Source: Arthrobacter sp. StoSoilB20 (GTDB lineage Bacteria > Actinomycetota > Actinomycetes > Actinomycetales > Micrococcaceae). From it: a DNA stretch of 64,000 bases. Under the pieces are notes generated by a model. It was not told the DNA's origin. It searched no databases and saw nothing but the letters and a program-made list of their open reading frames with translations. Positions 7,876-64,000 of this stretch are shown one piece after another (the first letter of the stretch is position 1; each line of letters opens with the position of its first letter). Both the position numbers and the translations under genes were made by a program. The stretch spans positions 4,712,001-4,776,000 of the forward strand of contig NZ_AP024651.1 of NCBI RefSeq assembly GCF_019977295.1, read 5' to 3'.

Positions 7876-9408
7876 ATGCTCGACCTTGAACCGTCGAGGC
7901 AAAACAGGAAGCTGGCCGCAGATCTTGTCCGGTTCACGCGCCGATCCGCCCGACGCTACAAACGCAGCCGGACCTCCTGGGGTGACCGTATTGTGGACGC
8001 CTACAGCTGGGGGCTGGGGATCGGCGTCGCCCTCACCATCGCGGCCTCGTTCGTTCTGGCGCTGCGCAACGAGATTGCGGACAGGGCGTCCACAACCAAC
8101 AGCATCATCGACGAACGGTGGTTGGTTCTTCCGGAAACCGTGTTGTGGACTTCAGTAACTTTCGCGGTCCTCATGGTCATCAGCAACCTGGCGCGAAAGC
8201 TTGGGCCCATAACGGCAAATGGGCCAGAAAGTACCTGGTGGCTGTCGCTGCCGGTGGACCGCCGGCCCATGGTCCTGCCGTCGTTCCTCCGCAAGGTCAC
8301 GCTTACGGCGGCAGGTTCGGGCATCGTCTACTTGCCCTTCAGCCTGGTGACCGCCGTTGACCGCACCCCCAGTGAACATCTTCTCGCTGCACTTTCCTTT
8401 GGCGGCGCCGCTGCTGTTGCCATGGCGATGGCGGCAGTGCAGCAACTGGGCTGGTTGGGACCGCGCGCAGGTAAAGCTGCGACGACGGCGGCCCTCCTCG
8501 CCTGCGCAGTCCTGCCGTCACTGTCCGGATCGCCTTGGCCGGCGGCGCTGGTAGCCGCTGCCGCCGTCGGACTACTGGCGCTGGTGGCGCCCCGCGCCGG
8601 TAAGGTGCGGGGTGAAGAGCTGGTTCGCGGTGGTGCCGTGGCCGGCCACGCCGGCGCGTCGCTGTTCCTGATGGACTCCAACGAGGTACTTCGGGCCTTG
8701 GGTGGCGGCCGTCAAAGGGTCGACGGCGGCAGGGCCGGCCGCTTCTACGCCCGGCCGGCGCGTGGTCCACTGGGCTCGCTGATCCGTGCTGACGCCGTTG
8801 CCTTCCTCCGCCTGAATCCCCCGCTGATCCCAGCCGGCCTATGGCTTGCGGCCTGCGTGGCGATCCTCCTCGTAGAAGGCGGCCTGCCCGAGTTCGCGCA
8901 GCTTGCGGTGATCGTGATCGCGGGATGCGCCACTGCGTCCGGCATGGGAACCGTGGTCCGCAAGACCGCGCTGGTTCCTGAGCTCGATGCCCTGCTGCCC
9001 TTGCATCCGGCACTGGTGAAGACCAGCCGCGCCCTGATGCCGTGCCTGGCCATGGCCGCGTGGATGGCGACGCTCAGCGGGCTGTTGGTTCTTTTGGGCG
9101 CTGCGGATCCGTGGTTGGTCGGTGTTGGCGGCCTTGCGGGCGTGGGCATGGGTGCGGGCACTCTCCGGGCGGCCGCCAGGACCCCGCCGGACTGGACAGC
9201 TCCGCCGGTTGAAACCCCCTTTGGCCCTGTACCACGCGCCCAGTTGGGGTCCCTGCTCCGCGGACTGGATGTAACCATCCTGGCGACAATTCCATTGCTG
9301 GTGGCCCTTTACCTGGGGTACGTCCCGTGGTCCGTACTGATGGTGCAGGCCGCATTCAGTGCAGGGATCTTCCTGATGGTTGTGTTGGCGCGGCCAAAGC
9401 AGCCCTGA
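7876..9408 (+). CDS. Multi-spanning membrane protein, probable ABC permease partner (DUF6297-like)
   Basis: I chose the ATG at 7876, immediately after the ATPase stop; the longer frame upstream reads through the ATPase gene. The 510-residue product starts with a basic cytoplasmic segment (FTRRSARRYKRSRTSWGDR) and contains roughly ten hydrophobic segments, including VALTIAASFVLAL, WLAACVAILLVEG and VTILATIPLLVALYLG. It resembles the actinobacterial DUF6297 proteins found beside ABC ATPases (recognition from memory, moderate certainty). The likely role is the membrane part of an ABC transporter with the preceding ATPase. Confidence 0.8.
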   Translation: MLDLEPSRQNRKLAADLVRFTRRSARRYKRSRTSWGDRIVDAYSWGLGIGVALTIAASFVLALRNEIADRASTTNSIIDERWLVLPETVLWTSVTFAVLMVISNLARKLGPITANGPESTWWLSLPVDRRPMVLPSFLRKVTLTAAGSGIVYLPFSLVTAVDRTPSEHLLAALSFGGAAAVAMAMAAVQQLGWLGPRAGKAATTAALLACAVLPSLSGSPWPAALVAAAAVGLLALVAPRAGKVRGEELVRGGAVAGHAGASLFLMDSNEVLRALGGGRQRVDGGRAGRFYARPARGPLGSLIRADAVAFLRLNPPLIPAGLWLAACVAILLVEGGLPEFAQLAVIVIAGCATASGMGTVVRKTALVPELDALLPLHPALVKTSRALMPCLAMAAWMATLSGLLVLLGAADPWLVGVGGLAGVGMGAGTLRAAARTPPDWTAPPVETPFGPVPRAQLGSLLRGLDVTILATIPLLVALYLGYVPWSVLMVQAAFSAGIFLMVVLARPKQP

Positions 9409-35052: not shown

Positions 35053-36309
35053 CTAGGGCTTCCTCCGGGCGAACTCGGGCGCGTGTTCGGGCCGTGGACC
35101 GAAAGCGATCATTCGCGCAGGAAGCTTCCCGAACCAGGGGAATTTCCGCACAACAAAGACCAGCGGCCTGGGAGGTTTGGGTTGTTTCCCGGCCATGACC
35201 TGTGCAAACACCACACGGTGCAGCACGCGCTGGAAGAATTGGATCAGGACGGTGGGAAGCCAGCGCCGCCTTTGGACCGCGGCGAGGTGGCCGTCGTCGA
35301 GTGTTTGGGTCAGCAGCGGCCCTGCGAGCAGGCGCGCCGCCGCCACTGCATCCTGCACCGCAAGGTTGATTCCCACCCCACCGGCAGGGGACATCGCATG
35401 GGCTGCATCCCCTATGAGCAGCAGCCCGGGCTTGTGCCACCGGGACAGCCGGTTGAGTTTCACGTCCAACAGGTGCAGATCGTCCAGCGATTCGATGGCT
35501 TCCACACGGTCGGCCAGGTCCGGCCGTAAAGCGGCTACCTTGCCACGGAACGCCTCAATTCCTGCAGCCCGCAGTTGGGGGTCCGAGCCTTTGGCCGCCA
35601 AGTACGCGATCTGGTGGTAATCCTTGCGGGTCAAGCTCAACAGGACGTCTGAGCTGCCAAAACGCGGGGCAATGGAAGCCAGTGGTTCGTCCTCGCCGGG
35701 AGTGCGGGGGATCCTGAACCACCAGGTATCAAAGGGCACGGGAAACTCCTGTGGAACCAGGCCGGCCTTCCTGCGGAGGACTGAACCACGTCCATCGCAG
35801 GCAACGGTCAGTGGCGCCCGCAGCTCACCGTGTCCCGTCAGCGCCCCCGTCTGCGGATCGCGTGTTCCGTACGCAACTCCAACAACCGCTCCTGCCGTGT
35901 CCGTCAGCGGTTCCGTCACCTCGGTATTCATCAGCAACGTGAAGTTGGGTTCCTGCTGTGCCGCTTCGACCAGGAAGTTCAACAGGTCCCATTGCGGCAC
36001 CATGGCGACGTAGTTGTACGGGGCTTTGAGCCGCCCAAAATCAGCCAGGACTACCGAATCATCCGATCCGACGGGTAGGCGGAAATTGCCCAGCTTGCTT
36101 TGGGGAAGGGCACGGAAGCCCTCGCCCAGACCCAACTCGTCAAGGAGCCTGACGGTGGAGGCGTGAACAGTATCGCCCCTGAAATCACGCAGGAAGTCAG
36201 CGTGTTTCTCCAGCACGGTGACTTCCACGCCGGCGCGGGCAAGCAGCAATCCCAGTACGATCCCGGCCGGCCCTCCGCCCGCCACTACACACTGGGTATT
36301 CGCTGCCAT
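35053..36309 (-). CDS. FAD-dependent aromatic-hydroxylase-like monooxygenase
   Basis: The 418-residue protein belongs to the PF01494-type flavin monooxygenases: VVAGGGPAGIVLGLLLARAG is the FAD Rossmann motif, LTVACDGRGSVLRRKAGL is the DG motif, and LLLIGDAAHAMSPAGGVGINLAVQDAV is the GD motif contacting the ribityl chain. Such enzymes use NAD(P)H and oxygen to hydroxylate aromatic or polyketide substrates. It follows the penicillin-binding protein gene by only 14 bp on the same strand, but no functional link is obvious. Confidence 0.92.
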   Translation of the reverse strand: MAANTQCVVAGGGPAGIVLGLLLARAGVEVTVLEKHADFLRDFRGDTVHASTVRLLDELGLGEGFRALPQSKLGNFRLPVGSDDSVVLADFGRLKAPYNYVAMVPQWDLLNFLVEAAQQEPNFTLLMNTEVTEPLTDTAGAVVGVAYGTRDPQTGALTGHGELRAPLTVACDGRGSVLRRKAGLVPQEFPVPFDTWWFRIPRTPGEDEPLASIAPRFGSSDVLLSLTRKDYHQIAYLAAKGSDPQLRAAGIEAFRGKVAALRPDLADRVEAIESLDDLHLLDVKLNRLSRWHKPGLLLIGDAAHAMSPAGGVGINLAVQDAVAAARLLAGPLLTQTLDDGHLAAVQRRRWLPTVLIQFFQRVLHRVVFAQVMAGKQPKPPRPLVFVVRKFPWFGKLPARMIAFGPRPEHAPEFARRKP

Positions 36310-56440: not shown

Positions 56441-58177
56441 GTGTCCCACCCGATCGACGTCGGATCAGTACTTGGCGGCCGCTACAAGGTCACGGCCAAT
56501 GTGTTGACCTCGCATGACCAAGATCAGGTGCTCGACGGCGTGGACCAGGTCCTCAACCGTCCCGTGAGCATCCTTGTCGCAGGACCCGGCAACGCCGAGC
56601 AGGTTGCCCAGAGCGCCCGCGAAGTCGCCACGGGGGAGCGCCCCGGCCACGTCCAGATCCTGGACCTTGGGGTCAGCGACAACACCACATACCTCATCAC
56701 CAACCACAGCAGCGCTCCTGATTTGTTGGACCTGGTGGTCGCCACCAACCCGCCGTACATTGAGCCCTTCTTCACCGAGACTCTGGGCAGCGAAATCTTC
56801 GGACAGCCCCGCACATACGAGCCCGAGACCTATGACGGCCTGTACGAGGATGACGAGCACGACGCCGCGTACATCCAGTACGACGAAAACGGCTACCCCA
56901 TCCACAACGGGGACGACACCGATCGCGCCGCTGAACCCGAGGCCGGCAACGTTCCTCCGCGGCCTGCCGCCAGCCCGTCGTCGTCCAAGAGCGGCATCGC
57001 CGGCAAGCTGGCTGCTGCCGCCGCAGGCGCTGGTGCGGCCGGTTTGGCCGCCTGGAAGAACTCGGGGACCAAGAACCACGACGCCGGTGCTGCCGCCGGC
57101 TCTGGTGCTGCTGGTGCCTCCGGTGCTGCCGCCGGCTCTGGTGCTGCTGCCGGAGCCTCAGCCCAGCCGCCCACCCAGGCCGTGACGTCCCAGCCGGCTC
57201 CTGCTGCTCCGCCGGCTCCTGCCGCACAGCCTCCGGCGGCGCCGCCCCAGCCGCCGACGCGAGCTGTCAATGCGCAGCCGGCACCCACACGGGAACCGGC
57301 AGTGTCGCGTCAACCTTCAGAGCCCAAGGTGTCCCTGTGGTCTGAAGAGGACTACGGCTTCGCCGGGGGAGGTGCCGCTGCCGGTGGTGCTGCTGCCGCT
57401 GGTGCCTCGGCTGCTTCGCGAGGTACCTCCGACCCGGGTTATGACCGCGCACCTACCAGCTTCCCGGCGTCGGCCGCTGTCCAGGAAGACTACGACGACG
57501 AGGAAGTGTACGAGGACGACGCTCCGGAGAAGGAGCCGCGATCACTCCGCTGGCTCGTCGGCGGCTTGCTGGCTGCCGTGCTGATCGTGGGCCTTGTCCT
57601 CGCCGTCACGAATTTGGGCAGTCTCCTTCCGAGCGGCGCCCCTGCAGCCACGCAGAGCACGCCCGCTCCGCAAACCAGCAGCAGCACTCAAGCTGAGGAG
57701 CCAACGCCTTCGGAAACGGCGCCTCCGGCTGTGCCACCGGCCATCCAGGGCATTTCCCGGCTGGGTGATTTCCCCTTCGCCGCCACGTACGACAAAGACC
57801 TGGTCCGGGCATTCGATGGCAACGCAGCAAGTTACTGGTCAGACATGGAATTTGCTACGGCGGACTGGGGCGGACTCGTCACCAACATGCCGCTGGTGAT
57901 TGAGCTCAAGGAAAAAACCGAGGTTAAGTCCATTGTGCTGAACCAGTTGGGTGGATCCGGGGGCAGCATCAGCGTTTACACCAACGACCGCCCTGCGATG
58001 GACGGTGCCAAGCTGGTTGGAACCAACAGCTTCACCTCCCCGGAACTGACCATGCCACTGGCAGCGCCGACGCAAACCAAATACCTGATCGTGGATGTCA
58101 AGGCCCTGCCCAAGCTGGCCGCACCGAAGACCCGGTACGGGTTCGGCCTGCGCCTGGCTGAGGTTACCGTCCAATAG
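56441..58177 (+). CDS. Membrane protein with degenerate kinase-like N-lobe and extracellular domain
   Basis: A GTG start follows AGGAGG. Of 578 residues, about 1-100 look like a reduced Ser/Thr-kinase N-lobe: LGGRYKVTANVLTSHDQDQV then LNRPVSILVAG, with no VAIK lysine, HRD or DFG, so catalysis is not expected. Residues 170-340 are low-complexity Ala/Gly/Pro. After the acidic DYDDEEVYEDDAPEKEP comes one membrane helix (370-392), and a 140-residue C-terminal domain resembles discoidin folds. This layout matches the C-terminal half of mycobacterial MviN, which recruits FhaA. A role in controlling MurJ is inferred. Confidence 0.75.
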   Translation: MSHPIDVGSVLGGRYKVTANVLTSHDQDQVLDGVDQVLNRPVSILVAGPGNAEQVAQSAREVATGERPGHVQILDLGVSDNTTYLITNHSSAPDLLDLVVATNPPYIEPFFTETLGSEIFGQPRTYEPETYDGLYEDDEHDAAYIQYDENGYPIHNGDDTDRAAEPEAGNVPPRPAASPSSSKSGIAGKLAAAAAGAGAAGLAAWKNSGTKNHDAGAAAGSGAAGASGAAAGSGAAAGASAQPPTQAVTSQPAPAAPPAPAAQPPAAPPQPPTRAVNAQPAPTREPAVSRQPSEPKVSLWSEEDYGFAGGGAAAGGAAAAGASAASRGTSDPGYDRAPTSFPASAAVQEDYDDEEVYEDDAPEKEPRSLRWLVGGLLAAVLIVGLVLAVTNLGSLLPSGAPAATQSTPAPQTSSSTQAEEPTPSETAPPAVPPAIQGISRLGDFPFAATYDKDLVRAFDGNAASYWSDMEFATADWGGLVTNMPLVIELKEKTEVKSIVLNQLGGSGGSISVYTNDRPAMDGAKLVGTNSFTSPELTMPLAAPTQTKYLIVDVKALPKLAAPKTRYGFGLRLAEVTVQ

Positions 58178-59397: not shown

Positions 59398-59724
59398 ATG
59401 AGCAACGCAAAAGACGTAACTGACGCAAGCTTCAGCACGGATGTCCTGGCTTCCGAGAAGCCGGTCATCGTGGACTTCTGGGCAGAGTGGTGTGGCCCCT
59501 GCCGCAAGCTCGGCCCCATCCTCGACGAAATCTCCGTCGAGTACGGCGACAAGGTTGACGTTGTGAAACTCAACGTTGACGACAACCCCGCGATCGCGGC
59601 TGAGTACGGCATCACGTCCATCCCGGCTGTGTACCTCTTCAGCGGGGGAGAAGTGAAGAGCACTGTCATTGGCGCCAAGCCGAAGCAGTTCTTCGAGAAG
59701 GAATTCGCGGACGTCCTGTCCTAG
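59398..59724 (+). CDS. trxA: Thioredoxin
   Basis: The 108-residue protein has VDFWAEWCGPCRKLGP with active-site Cys32 and Cys35, VDDNPAIAAEYGITSIPAVYLF with the cis-proline loop, and standard thioredoxin length. AGAAGGGAAAAG provides the ribosome binding site. It is co-transcribed with trxB. In mycobacteria cwlM and parB/parA follow next; here the gene-free parS region follows. Confidence 0.98.
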   Translation: MSNAKDVTDASFSTDVLASEKPVIVDFWAEWCGPCRKLGPILDEISVEYGDKVDVVKLNVDDNPAIAAEYGITSIPAVYLFSGGEVKSTVIGAKPKQFFEKEFADVLS

Positions 59725-59750
59725 CTCGGATTCCTGACTCCGAGTCAACG

Positions 59751-59802
59751 AAAGCCGGCGGCTGCTGCTCCTCAGGGAGCGGGAGCAGCCGGCTTTTTTT
59801 AT
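59751..59802 (+). terminator. Intrinsic terminator of trxBA
   Basis: AAAGCCGGCGGCTGCTGCTC pairs with GAGCAGCCGGCTTT with a bulge, followed by a run of seven T on the plus strand. This is a classical rho-independent terminator. Confidence 0.9.
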
Positions 59803-59920
59803 TTCTTGGATAAGTAAACTTCCAGAGCTTTCATTTCACTCAGTTCGTTGCCGGGGAGCCTTCAGCGGTTCAGGTTTTGGCTATTTCGGTTGGCCCTACC
59901 TGGGGTAGGCAGAACTTGCT

Positions 59921-60213
59921 CCCTCTTCCACATCCCCACCCCCTCCCGGGCACACCTCTTGCACATCCCCACCCCGTCCCGGGCGATCCTCTTCCGCATC
60001 CCCGCCCCCTCCCGGGCAACCCTCCTCCACATCCCCACCCCCCCGGGCAACCCTCTTCCACATCCCCACCCCCCCGGGCAACCCTCTTCCACATCCCCAC
60101 CCCCCCGGCCGACCCTCTTCCACATCCCCGCCCCCTCCCGGGCAACCCTCCTCCACATCCCCACCCCCCCGGGCAACCCTCTTCCACATCCCCGCCCCCT
60201 CCTGGGCAACCCT
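59921..60213. repeat. Minisatellite: nine tandem units of 31-34 bp
   Basis: Nine adjacent units follow the pattern CCCTCTTCCACATCCCC, then ACCCCC or GCCCCC, then a CCCGGGCAA end. Outer units are more diverged and two are identical over long stretches. Unit lengths are mixed 31, 33 and 34 bp, so no frame is kept. Every unit carries CCCGGG or a close variant and a polypyrimidine tract on the plus strand. No spacer-like unique sequence occurs, which excludes a CRISPR array. Confidence 0.92.
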
Positions 60214-60921
60214 CTTTCATCACGGCATAATCGAGCCAATGGAATGCATGATCCTGATAATCCTCTTTGGGCCAATCCACCTGGGGCGGACAGACTAGCA
60301 CTCAAACCGGCGGTCGGGGCCGAACTGCCACATTGTCATCGGCCAACACTTTGGAGGAGATGCGCTTAAGGGGCTCTACTCTTGACAGGCTTTGCCGCCG
60401 GTTACATTCACTGGAACGGTAGGACGGACCGGAATTAGGCGGATGAAACCCCGCTTGTAACTAGATCGGACCCTTCACGCTGATTGTTTCGCGGGAGTGC
60501 CCACGACGCAGTCATCATGGGGAGTGAGGTCAGATCATGACGATGGGAAGTGGACAGATGGTCATAGATCTGCAGCGGTTTCATGGCTGCCCTTGGCAAG
60601 GAATTCGCTGGTTTGTGAATGAAATTGCCTCTGCCGGCGGGAATGCTGTGCGGATGTCACGACACCCAATGGGAGTTGCGCGGGAACGACAACCATTACT
60701 GTTCCCACTACGCCCATCGGTCAGCGTCGGGCAGTGTCTTCCATTTCACCGCTTGCGGCAAATGACTCTTGTACTTCTACCTGCAGCCGGTGATTCAGTA
60801 GCTGCGTTCAATACGCTCACAAGTACACACATGGCTCCTGACAAACGTCCCCCGTCTCTCCGGCGTCAGAAGATGCAGTAACTCTAAAGTCCTGCGGCCC
60901 AACTCTAGGTAGTCACTGGGT

Positions 60922-60937
60922 GGTTTCACGTGAAACA
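60922..60937. other. parS-like site 1
   Basis: GGTTTCACGTGAAACA differs from the ParB-binding consensus TGTTTCACGTGAAACA only at the first base. The central 14-bp palindrome is intact. Confidence 0.9.
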
Positions 60938-61038
60938 TGGGCGGGCAAGCCGTGCACGGGAGCCACCAACTGTATGGCGCACCAAGTCGCCCCAACACCG
61001 TCATGCCTAAATGCCACTTCTTCACGGAGCCAACCGCA

Positions 61039-61054
61039 TGTTTCACGTGAAACA
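61039..61054. other. parS site 2 (perfect)
   Basis: TGTTTCACGTGAAACA matches the 16-bp ParB consensus exactly. It lies 117 bp after site 1. Confidence 0.95.
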
Positions 61055-61633
61055 ACGGTCTGCTTGCCGCGCCTAGGGAGGTTCCACGGCCGATGCAGCA
61101 GCAACGAAATGATTTGGTCCCCCCAACGAGTCTGACTTCATTGATGCAGGGCGCGTGATCTAGGTGAAACCCCAGGACTGGTCTTGGTGTCACAGGCACA
61201 CGTTTCTCCTACTGCATGATTTGTTAGCCCGGGGAACCCGCCAGAAAGCTACTGGTAGCGCTGAACTTTGCCTGGCACCTTGAAGCGCGCGAGCCCGACC
61301 TCGGCAGCCAGAAGACCCGGCAGGGCCGATTCTGCGCACAAAAAGCCTAGGGGAGCCGCTACGAGTCTCCCAGGCACTACTGGCCCCCTGCAAGCCGCAT
61401 TCAACTCGCCTCCGGGTCTTCCTCATACGGATATTCGAGACATTGAGGTAGAGAGGCAAAATGAGTTAGAGAACTTATCAACTGCAAAGCCCCGCTCGCC
61501 AGTCCCATGCAAAGGCGATGCCCGCCAACGAGGGTCAGAACCACGGCAGCAACGAGCAACTGACTAATGAACACGATGACTCCATGGAATTGCTATCTGC
61601 CAGGAGAGTTCTGAGGCTCCACGGCCAACAATC

Positions 61634-61675
61634 GAGCCCCTGCAGGCTCACCTGCAGGGTCACCTGCAGGGGCTC
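61634..61675. repeat. Inverted repeat built from CCTGCAGG units
   Basis: GAGCCCCTGCAGG and CCTGCAGGGGCTC form a perfect 13-bp stem around a 16-base centre that carries a third CCTGCAGG-like unit. It may form a hairpin or cruciform between parS sites 2 and 3. No T-run follows, so it does not look like a terminator. Confidence 0.7.
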
Positions 61676-62063
61676 TGAAGCTGGCAGGGCAGTACAACTT
61701 TGCGAGATCACGTCCGAATCTTGGAAAAGGGCCAGAGGTGCGGGCACCAGCAGCTCATTCTGAGCAGTGGGATGGCCGCCGGGAGCTACGGCCTACACAC
61801 ACCCTCAGGGAAACGTGCGATGCAGTGTTCCAACCACAAACGCCCCACTGGCGGGAGCCGGCAGAGCCTTGGCGGCAGCACCGTGTGAGTAGCCGGGATG
61901 CATCCATCCAGGCCGAGAGAAATGCCTGATACATGCGGCCACCAACGGACTTGAGTTCAAAGGCGAACGCAGCAGAACGGCGGACCGAATCGTGTGCTAA
62001 TTGGTGACGAGCCACGACTTCCGCTGACCATGGGAGATATTCTGGCCGCTTGTTCTCGCCCAA

Positions 62064-62079
62064 CGTTTCACGTGAAACA
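62064..62079. other. parS-like site 3
   Basis: CGTTTCACGTGAAACA has one mismatch, at the first base, to the ParB consensus. Confidence 0.9.
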
Positions 62080-62605
62080 TTGGAGCCCTCCGGCGAGGGA
62101 CGCGTCTACATCCGACTTGGACCACTAACTCCATGGTCTATAGCCACTGCACCACCCTTCATGGTGACGAACATGAGCAGCGCGCCGTTGCACCTGCTTG
62201 GCTACACGACTCTCTGGCGACATCCAGATAATTGGGTGTGGTCCAGTTTCTCTCAATGAGCCCATCGGGGCGTCAATTGAAATCAGAATGTGTGAACGCT
62301 AGCAAGCATCGAATCGCATCTGCGTCAGGGACTCACCGCAGTCTCGACATTAGGGCATTCGATGATAACCAGAACTATCCCTGCCGATACGGGGAGTCAC
62401 TATCCAGTCTCTCAATCAGGCCCTGAGTGCCACAGGCGTTCCAGGGAAGAGAAGGACGCGGTGGCGCGTGGCTGCAACGGTCATGTTCTGCTGTGGCTAA
62501 CGTGGCTTCTGCGACCACGAATACTCTTCCGGGCATGATCTGGAGTTTCCTTCACCGCTGGGCGTGACCGTCGTCCAGGCGAAAGGGGAGGGCGCCACGA
62601 ATGCA

Positions 62606-62621
62606 CGTTTCACGTGAAACA
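62606..62621. other. parS-like site 4
   Basis: CGTTTCACGTGAAACA again, identical to site 3 and 542 bp from it. Confidence 0.9.
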
Positions 62622-63142
62622 CTGGCTCGGGCACATCGACTGATCAAGCTGGTGCAGTCATACAAGACCAACGAAAGGGAACACGTGACTGCGCGCTGGG
62701 ATGGACCTGGACAACGCTCGGCCCTGTTGCAAGGGTTAGTTCATCTCTCCTCGTGCTCCTTCTAGACCGGCGGCCGGGTCGAAGTCCACTACTTCTTGGA
62801 ACGGTCAGCATGGTTAGCGCCCGTCACAACAACGCACTAAATATACTGGCTCTCCGTCGGCCCCAAGCCCCGGCACTAGTGAGCATACGCTGCCCGTCTA
62901 AGCCATCAATGTCATCAAGTGGGAAAGACATCCGATGAATTCCTTGATGTCGTTGTCCATCACGAAAAGCGGAGCTAAGGGTTCCTGGCTGTCAGGAGCA
63001 CACTCTTCTCCACTAGAGTAATGGCGCTGGAACAAGACAGGGAGGACCCTAGTGCCAGCCGGCATGTGTCCTTGTCGCATCGAGTCCTCAAAGTCGCATG
63101 GCGGCCTGCCCATCATCCAAGGTGACTGCAATTTGGCCAGGG

Positions 63143-63151
63143 TTGTCCACC
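63143..63151 (+). other. DnaA-box-like 9-mer (single)
   Basis: TTGTCCACC is one base from the actinobacterial DnaA box TTGTCCACA. Confidence 0.45.
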
Positions 63152-63175
63152 GATCGACACCCAGTCGTCTTGAAG

Positions 63176-63208
63176 TTGTGCACATACTTATCCACAGGCT
63201 TATCCACT
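63176..63208 (+). other. Three DnaA-box-like 9-mers phased 12 bp apart (array A)
   Basis: TTGTGCACA at 63176, TTATCCACA at 63188 (identical to the classical E. coli R box) and TTATCCACT at 63200 are in the same orientation with starts exactly 12 bp apart. Confidence 0.65.
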
Positions 63209-63269
63209 GAGTATGAGCCCGTTCACAGATCGTCATTCTCGTAGGTCCTTGAGTACGACCGAGATGGAA

Positions 63270-63278
63270 ATATCCACG
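63270..63278 (+). other. DnaA-box-like 9-mer (single)
   Basis: ATATCCACG is in the same orientation as the arrays on either side. The match is weak on its own. Confidence 0.35.
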
Positions 63279-63507
63279 ATCTCGCGCCACCGCGTGTATG
63301 CGCCCAGCACTTAGGCGGAGTGCCCAAATCTGCGTGCAAAACCAATGGAAATCAGGGGCAAAGGCCAGAAAAGGGGCGCCGCTAGACTTGGCTCTCGTAA
63401 CTTCCGATCGAGTTCGCACTGAAGCAGGTTCGACGAGCCGGTGTCGCGGTCACTCGGATCGCGATGTGGGCCTAAGCACACCACACCAGCCCACATTACC
63501 CACAAAG

Positions 63508-63540
63508 TTATCCCCAACGATATCCACAGGGATATCCACT
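63508..63540 (+). other. Three DnaA-box-like 9-mers phased 12 bp apart (array B)
   Basis: TTATCCCCA at 63508, ATATCCACA at 63520 and ATATCCACT at 63532 repeat the 12-bp phasing and orientation of array A. parS-like site 5 begins 55 bp after the last box. Confidence 0.6.
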
Positions 63541-63594
63541 TCCTTATGCGCAGGCATCCCAGCCGACACTATGCACTCGGCACAATCAGTTCCC

Positions 63595-63610
63595 CGTTTC
63601 ACGTGAAACA
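63595..63610. other. parS-like site 5
   Basis: CGTTTCACGTGAAACA, the same variant as sites 3 and 4, next to DnaA-box-like array B. Confidence 0.9.
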
Positions 63611-64000
63611 ATCTGCCCTGTCGTTACGAACGGACACGAGCTGTTCATTCGCCTTCAGAGCTCGCCCGCGACAATCACGGTAGGTCCCATCGTGTGCCAA
63701 GTCGGAAATGCCAGGCAGTCACGGATCGGGCAGTGGCGACATCAGACCAATCGGCCGTGCCTTCACCAACTATGTTTACTGAGGCTCTTCCAGCGGTGGC
63801 GCGGTCGCAGGTGATGACATCGGTAGTTCCTCTCCTTATCCTGTTGTGGACCGCAGGGGACTGATGATGCCAGTGCCGCCAAAAGACCGGGCCTGAACCA
63901 ACGGCATTCCTGAACAATCCGCTTTCTGCTCCTCGGGCTGCCATTCCTTGCCGCCTAAGGCATTCAGAGAACCGCCAGTTCCGCGCCAGGACGACCAAAG

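Follow-up and report, generated by a model that had tools for sequence, protein, structure and literature searches.

Outside a few models, it is still open how the start of replication is coupled to the segregation of the origin. In this study, we analyzed a 64,000-bp stretch of an Arthrobacter chromosome (the window; positions 4712001-4776000 of one 4,784,108-bp contig) in which several ParB palindromes (parS) lie close together. The question raised by this locus is whether these sites form a dedicated centromere, and what else is kept in the DNA between them.

A first-pass annotation had described five such palindromes within 2.7 kb, one perfect and four with one mismatch, three of them the same CG variant. 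The window was searched for TGTTTCACGTGAAACA with up to three mismatches, and the result was compared with 100 shuffles. Six matches were found against a chance expectation of 0.15; the largest number in a shuffle was 2, and 0 of 100 shuffles reached 6. The match at 35456, which has three mismatches, was not counted as parS. The remaining five confirmed the description (window positions; the sister genome and cluster B are described below):

60922-60937, no strand: parS 1 (GGTTTCACGTGAAACA), one mismatch; in the sister the core is identical and the last outer base is changed
61039-61054, no strand: parS 2, perfect consensus; identical in the sister
62064-62079, no strand: parS 3, C variant, one mismatch; identical in the sister
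62606-62621, no strand: parS 4, C variant, one mismatch; identical in the sister
63595-63610, no strand: parS 5, one mismatch, with its core starting 100 bp past the first box of cluster B; identical in the sister

The exact 14-base parS core occurs ten times in the whole 4.78-Mb chromosome. All ten copies lie at 4772923-4780223, within 7.3 kb near oriC and 3.9-11.2 kb from dnaA, and the five sites of the window are half of them. Nine lie in the gap between trxA and parB, four of these beyond the window end, and one lies within the parA ORF. The core read backwards, used as a control, had no exact match in the chromosome. With one mismatch, two cores were found outside the cluster (684236 and 4225268), the same number as with the backwards control. 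Mapping of the whole chromosome had been proposed as the check that could speak against a dedicated centromere in a gene-free segment. Because there is no exact core outside the cluster, an even spread of equally good sites was not found, and the sequence supports the proposal. In the genus, all 41 genomes (own included) have 6-12 exact cores each, and in the eight with full position lists (own included) every exact core lies in one stretch of about 6-8 kb.

The gap between the convergent genes trxA and parB is 6,236 bp long. Its left side lies in the window:

59398-59724, + strand: trxA, the left boundary gene (NCBIfam TIGR01068, above cut-off)
59725-64000, no strand: left part of the gap, which ends at genome position 4777960, past the window
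59755-59802, + strand: terminator-like hairpin and T-run 3' of trxA (-30.2 kcal/mol, z -5.0), listed by the terminator scan

The genes are arranged as trxB and trxA rightward, the gap, then parB, parA, rsmG and yidC leftward, with dnaA and dnaN at the contig start. ParB (TIGR00180), RsmG, YidC, DnaA and DnaN matched NCBIfam models above cut-off. The best matches of ParA were ParA/RepA/MinD-type families, all below their cut-offs, so its family is clear and no single model was reached; both genes of a ParABS system are present. A candidate rnpA ORF had no NCBIfam match at E 1e-20, and a 578-aa protein encoded after murJ (window 56441-58177) had no NCBIfam match.

The description of the segment as gene-free was borne out. 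The gap is the longest run of low 3-base codon periodicity in the 72 kb examined (mean of 0.71 in 28 gap windows and 6.29 in the others). No Pfam match was obtained for the five gap ORFs tested and no Rfam match in the gap, and substitutions relative to the sister showed no codon phase (640/629/644). Hidden genes are unsupported on all four counts. The GC content is 0.576 in the gap versus 0.630 in the remainder of the window. Promoter and terminator scans stayed near the shuffle level (3 vs 2.4 and 8 vs 6.0, respectively). A second hairpin, 3' of parB and outside the window, has -26.6 kcal/mol and z -6.5 and is absent from the list of the terminator scan; each flanking hairpin is more stable than all 200 of its shuffles. 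A 31-bp tandem repeat lies 3' of trxA (window 59921-60216), with related copies elsewhere in the genus and another in the same genome at 3724336-3724608. An inverted repeat of CCTGCAGG-type units was also seen in the gap (window 61634-61676); it is not among the blocks conserved in the sister.

Roughly halfway along the gap, between parS 4 and parS 5, a motif search revealed two clusters of DnaA boxes, which the first-pass annotation had not mentioned:

63188-63208, + strand: DnaA-box cluster A, a head-to-tail pair of boxes spaced by 12 bp; the sister agrees at 21 of 21 bases
63496-63552, + strand: DnaA-box cluster B, five head-to-tail boxes in 12-bp steps, of varying quality (three have one mismatch and the other two have two); the sister agrees at 91% of 57 bases

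For the survey of gaps below, box pairs were called phased when two boxes with at most one mismatch lay 11-14 bp apart on one strand. A phased-pair pattern with up to one mismatch matched seven times in the genome: five in the gap array, one between dnaA and dnaN, and one at 795764. As judged from sequence, DnaA boxes are located inside the putative centromere, the arrangement of the Caulobacter type. Five exact DnaA boxes also lie within 0.7 kb at genome 19919-20591 (about 7919-8591 in locus L106), on the other side of the origin and mostly between longer ORFs.

We then compared the gap with that of G146, here called the sister, the sole one among the other 197 genus genomes searched in which the gap could be aligned over most of its length. 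The DNA of trxB, trxA and parB is 92-95% identical, and fourfold sites of five genes differ by 14-38%. Beyond its first 0.7 kb, the gap differs by 35% (65% identity; 5,461 aligned bases, 74 indel events). All nine parS cores of the gap are identical and in register in the sister, which carries one extra parS; the outer bases are changed at four of the nine sites. The longest stretches free of any difference fall in DnaA-box clusters A (33 bases) and B (29 bases), and the interval between A and B shows 54% identity over 261 aligned bases. The trxA-side hairpin has 83% identity across 42 bases, compared with 65% in the gap, and the other hairpin region is 88% identical. Other identical runs of 14-19 bases lie outside these elements, at about chance level by estimate. 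These results indicate that the DNA between the sites appears to have diverged about as synonymous sites do, whereas the parS sites and the DnaA-box array were kept.

Next, related loci were surveyed, namely 80 named ParB loci (the best 80 of 576 confirmed). A measurable trxA-parB gap was present in 47 loci and, with L013 (the present locus), in 48; the other 33 either yielded no trxA or had one with less than 60% identity. The 48 gaps range from 57 bp to 9.2 kb. By the rule above, phased boxes are present in 24 of the 48, in gaps of 4.1-9.1 kb with 5-11 parS sites. In a FastTree tree of TrxB, TrxA, ParA and ParB from the 48 loci (rooted at the midpoint and read without support values), the array loci are 24 of the 27 members of one clade of Arthrobacter relatives. 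The array-bearing records are named Arthrobacter, Paenarthrobacter, Pseudarthrobacter or Sinomonas; other loci labelled Arthrobacter lack the array. The three remaining clade members are Paenarthrobacter L042 (a 3.2-kb gap with six parS sites) and Psychromicrobium L046 and L049 (one parS each, in gaps of 57 and 93 bp, respectively), all without the array, so neither the long gap nor the array is indispensable in this clade. The simplest reading is one gain of the array and later losses. Long gaps with parS and without the array also exist, such as that of L044 (9.2 kb). L020 and L026, which are cut by contig ends, have boxes of the same kind as the array. In 29 gaps of at least 4 kb, the word lists were topped by parS-type and DnaA-box-type words.

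The layout of the array is largely kept among the 24 gaps. Boxes with at most one mismatch number 124 on the + strand versus 6 on the other, and 44 pairs of neighbours have a spacing of exactly 12 bp. Two clusters were found by the rule in 23 gaps, separated by 296-389 bp in 22 and by 1,839 bp in L017; cluster A of L017 (placed at B minus 330) and the weak cluster B of L029 (A plus 340) were placed by hand. An ORF for an integrase-core (rve) transposase lies between clusters A and B of L017. In 18 loci a parS begins 87-131 bp ahead of cluster B (L029 would be the nineteenth), and in four (L013, L015, L016 and L018) one begins 92-115 bp beyond the first B box. In Sinomonas L034, parS was found neither before nor after B at those distances.

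A model, R1, was built from the 24 B clusters and searched against wider sets of genomes. All 121 genus genomes searched gave a match at E<=0.05, with best E values from 1e-13 to 3e-4; the weaker of these matches may represent oriC instead of the array in the gap. A strict box-pair pattern was found in 16 of 100 family genomes; it was too stringent and R1 was used instead, giving matches at E<=0.05, many of them weak, in 101 of 119 family genomes. Outside the genus the best E was 4e-7 to 3e-6. In three genomes of one other genus, perhaps the Sinomonas group (G308, G138 and G120), R1 matches form pairs 369-433 bp apart. In 33 loci without the array, R1 had no match in the gap; matches lay on the parA side of parB, and in L045 at 13920 past trxA. 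Of the nine genus genomes with listed parS places, eight (all but G009) also had a listed R1 match: parS lies 99-120 bp before it in five (G002, G003, G020, G033 and G035), about 100 bp after it in G000 and G008, and at neither place in G036. These genomes and the named loci overlap in part, and some of the nine probably belong to species that are also represented by named loci. Since the species share ancestry, the locus and genome counts are not independent.

The parS sites of the 24 array-bearing gaps were also examined. A regular C or G in the first position had been suggested to reflect a ParB preference particular to the lineage. This was not supported: among 364 half-sites (182 sites), the outer base is T in 244, C in 93, G in 17 and A in 10. 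Spacing of the sites is more even than random (mean CV 0.57 vs 0.81 +/- 0.05, 0 of 2000 trials). Only 16 cores with one or two mismatches were found versus 182 exact ones, a pattern expected when a site is either retained intact or lost altogether. Since the species are related, the even spacing and the few near-misses are support, not proof.

Taken together, we consider, with a probability of about 0.62, that the gap with its parS sites is a dedicated centromere for the loading of ParB, seemingly shielded from transcription and with a core that binds DnaA. The locus is real and conserved. The parS cluster by itself is fairly ordinary; what stands out is that a DnaA array lies in unconstrained DNA, in most cases next to a parS whose distance is conserved. 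The centromere part of this reading is well supported by the sequence. ParB would load at each parS as CTP-dependent clamps, which would slide over DNA that is probably little transcribed and form a compact partition complex; ParA would then move this complex, which may also load SMC. DnaA would assemble on the phased boxes beside the central parS, and the array could tie centromere activity to the state of replication initiation, as reported at the Caulobacter centromere. DnaA binding and the coupling of segregation to replication are the least certain part, suggested with Caulobacter as the precedent. An extension that we hold only tentatively is that the A array, parS and B array form a dedicated switch that arose separately from the Caulobacter case, in which DnaA-ATP oligomers might gate ParB loading or ParA engagement and so license both replication and segregation. 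Two published observations bear on these proposals. According to the part of PMC7614844 available to us, the control of DnaA by ParA in B. subtilis needs no parS near oriC, which counts against coupling. ParB can bypass roadblocks in vitro, as stated in the available part of PMC9242446, which makes an unobstructed track less necessary.

Another explanation, which has some merit and strikes us as rather unlikely, is that the parS sites are an ordinary ori-proximal cluster and that the array is a separate DnaA titration or recycling site in the same spacer, acting on initiation and not on segregation. Head-to-tail boxes suit DnaA oligomers in general, which favours this explanation. The DnaA-titrating or -recycling loci datA, DARS and the Streptomyces box clusters also have boxes outside oriC, like the gap array. 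The further box cluster between ORFs near position 20 kb points the same way and means that the centromere is not the sole extra DnaA site. However, the array retains its position within the parS group, and 22 of 24 loci (23 if the hand-placed L029 is counted) have a parS about 90-130 bp away, which would be needless for a free-standing titration site; to our knowledge, datA, DARS and the Streptomyces clusters are not set amid parS at a kept distance.

It is very improbable that the middle of the gap is a second or ancestral replication origin. The two clusters are separated by about 300-390 bp of DNA that is slightly richer in AT, which recalls a bipartite origin; however, the AT excess, considered as a sign of a possible DNA unwinding element, is small (0.421 vs 0.407), and the dnaA-dnaN interval has boxes of its own. 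In the 24 pooled gaps, the GC skew has the same sign to the left (-0.061) and to the right (-0.042) of the array, without the change of sign of an oriC. Forks therefore appear to cross the array in one direction, which disfavours a second origin. The cumulative skew near the origin had its minimum at +10.4 kb and was too noisy to place the start.

Three loci (L040, L041 and L067) carry an amidase gene between trxA and parB (Pfam PG_binding_1 and Amidase_3), which we take to be CwlM-like. Matches to it were found in three of nine genomes searched, namely those with the gene at this place; the other six had none, and it had no match in the present genome. These loci could suggest that the gap is decayed DNA left by the loss of such genes, kept by chance and with a functionless length, a view that is hardly credible given that length, parS number and even spacing persist where the gap sequences no longer align.

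Because the two kinds of site stand in otherwise unconstrained DNA, the number of parS sites, their spacing and the array could each be removed or moved singly, in soil bacteria, without touching a gene. A natural comparison is also available between relatives with a 4-9 kb centromere and Psychromicrobium with its 57-93 bp gap and one parS.

Among the matches listed in a search of open-licence papers by title and start of abstract, no paper concerned parS or DnaA boxes at this Arthrobacter locus, which does not show absence from print. The available parts of PMC6667618 and PMC4255298 contain nothing on box arrays. Of the known systems, Corynebacterium glutamicum is also an actinobacterium and has ten parS sites in one cluster near oriC, nine of them intergenic (PMC7083940, available part, which mentions no DnaA array at the cluster). 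Its sites are spread over 35 kb at 73 kb from oriC (PMC7083940), whereas here they lie within 7.3 kb, nine in one gap adjoining parB, at 4-11 kb from dnaA. The rctA/parS2 site of Vibrio cholerae chromosome II is bound by RctB and is thus likewise a centromere that binds a replication initiator; the initiator is a different one and the chromosome is a secondary one (PMC6399470, available part). A further close system is the parS-Cori region of Caulobacter crescentus, where initiator boxes lie within the centromere, DnaA binds it, and DnaA-ATP is needed for partitioning (Mera et al. 2014, as cited in the available part of the review PMC6399470). Compared with Caulobacter, the locus described here, known from sequence alone, belongs to an actinobacterium and combines a two-cluster phased array with 5-11 parS sites in a 4-9 kb gap without recognizable genes.
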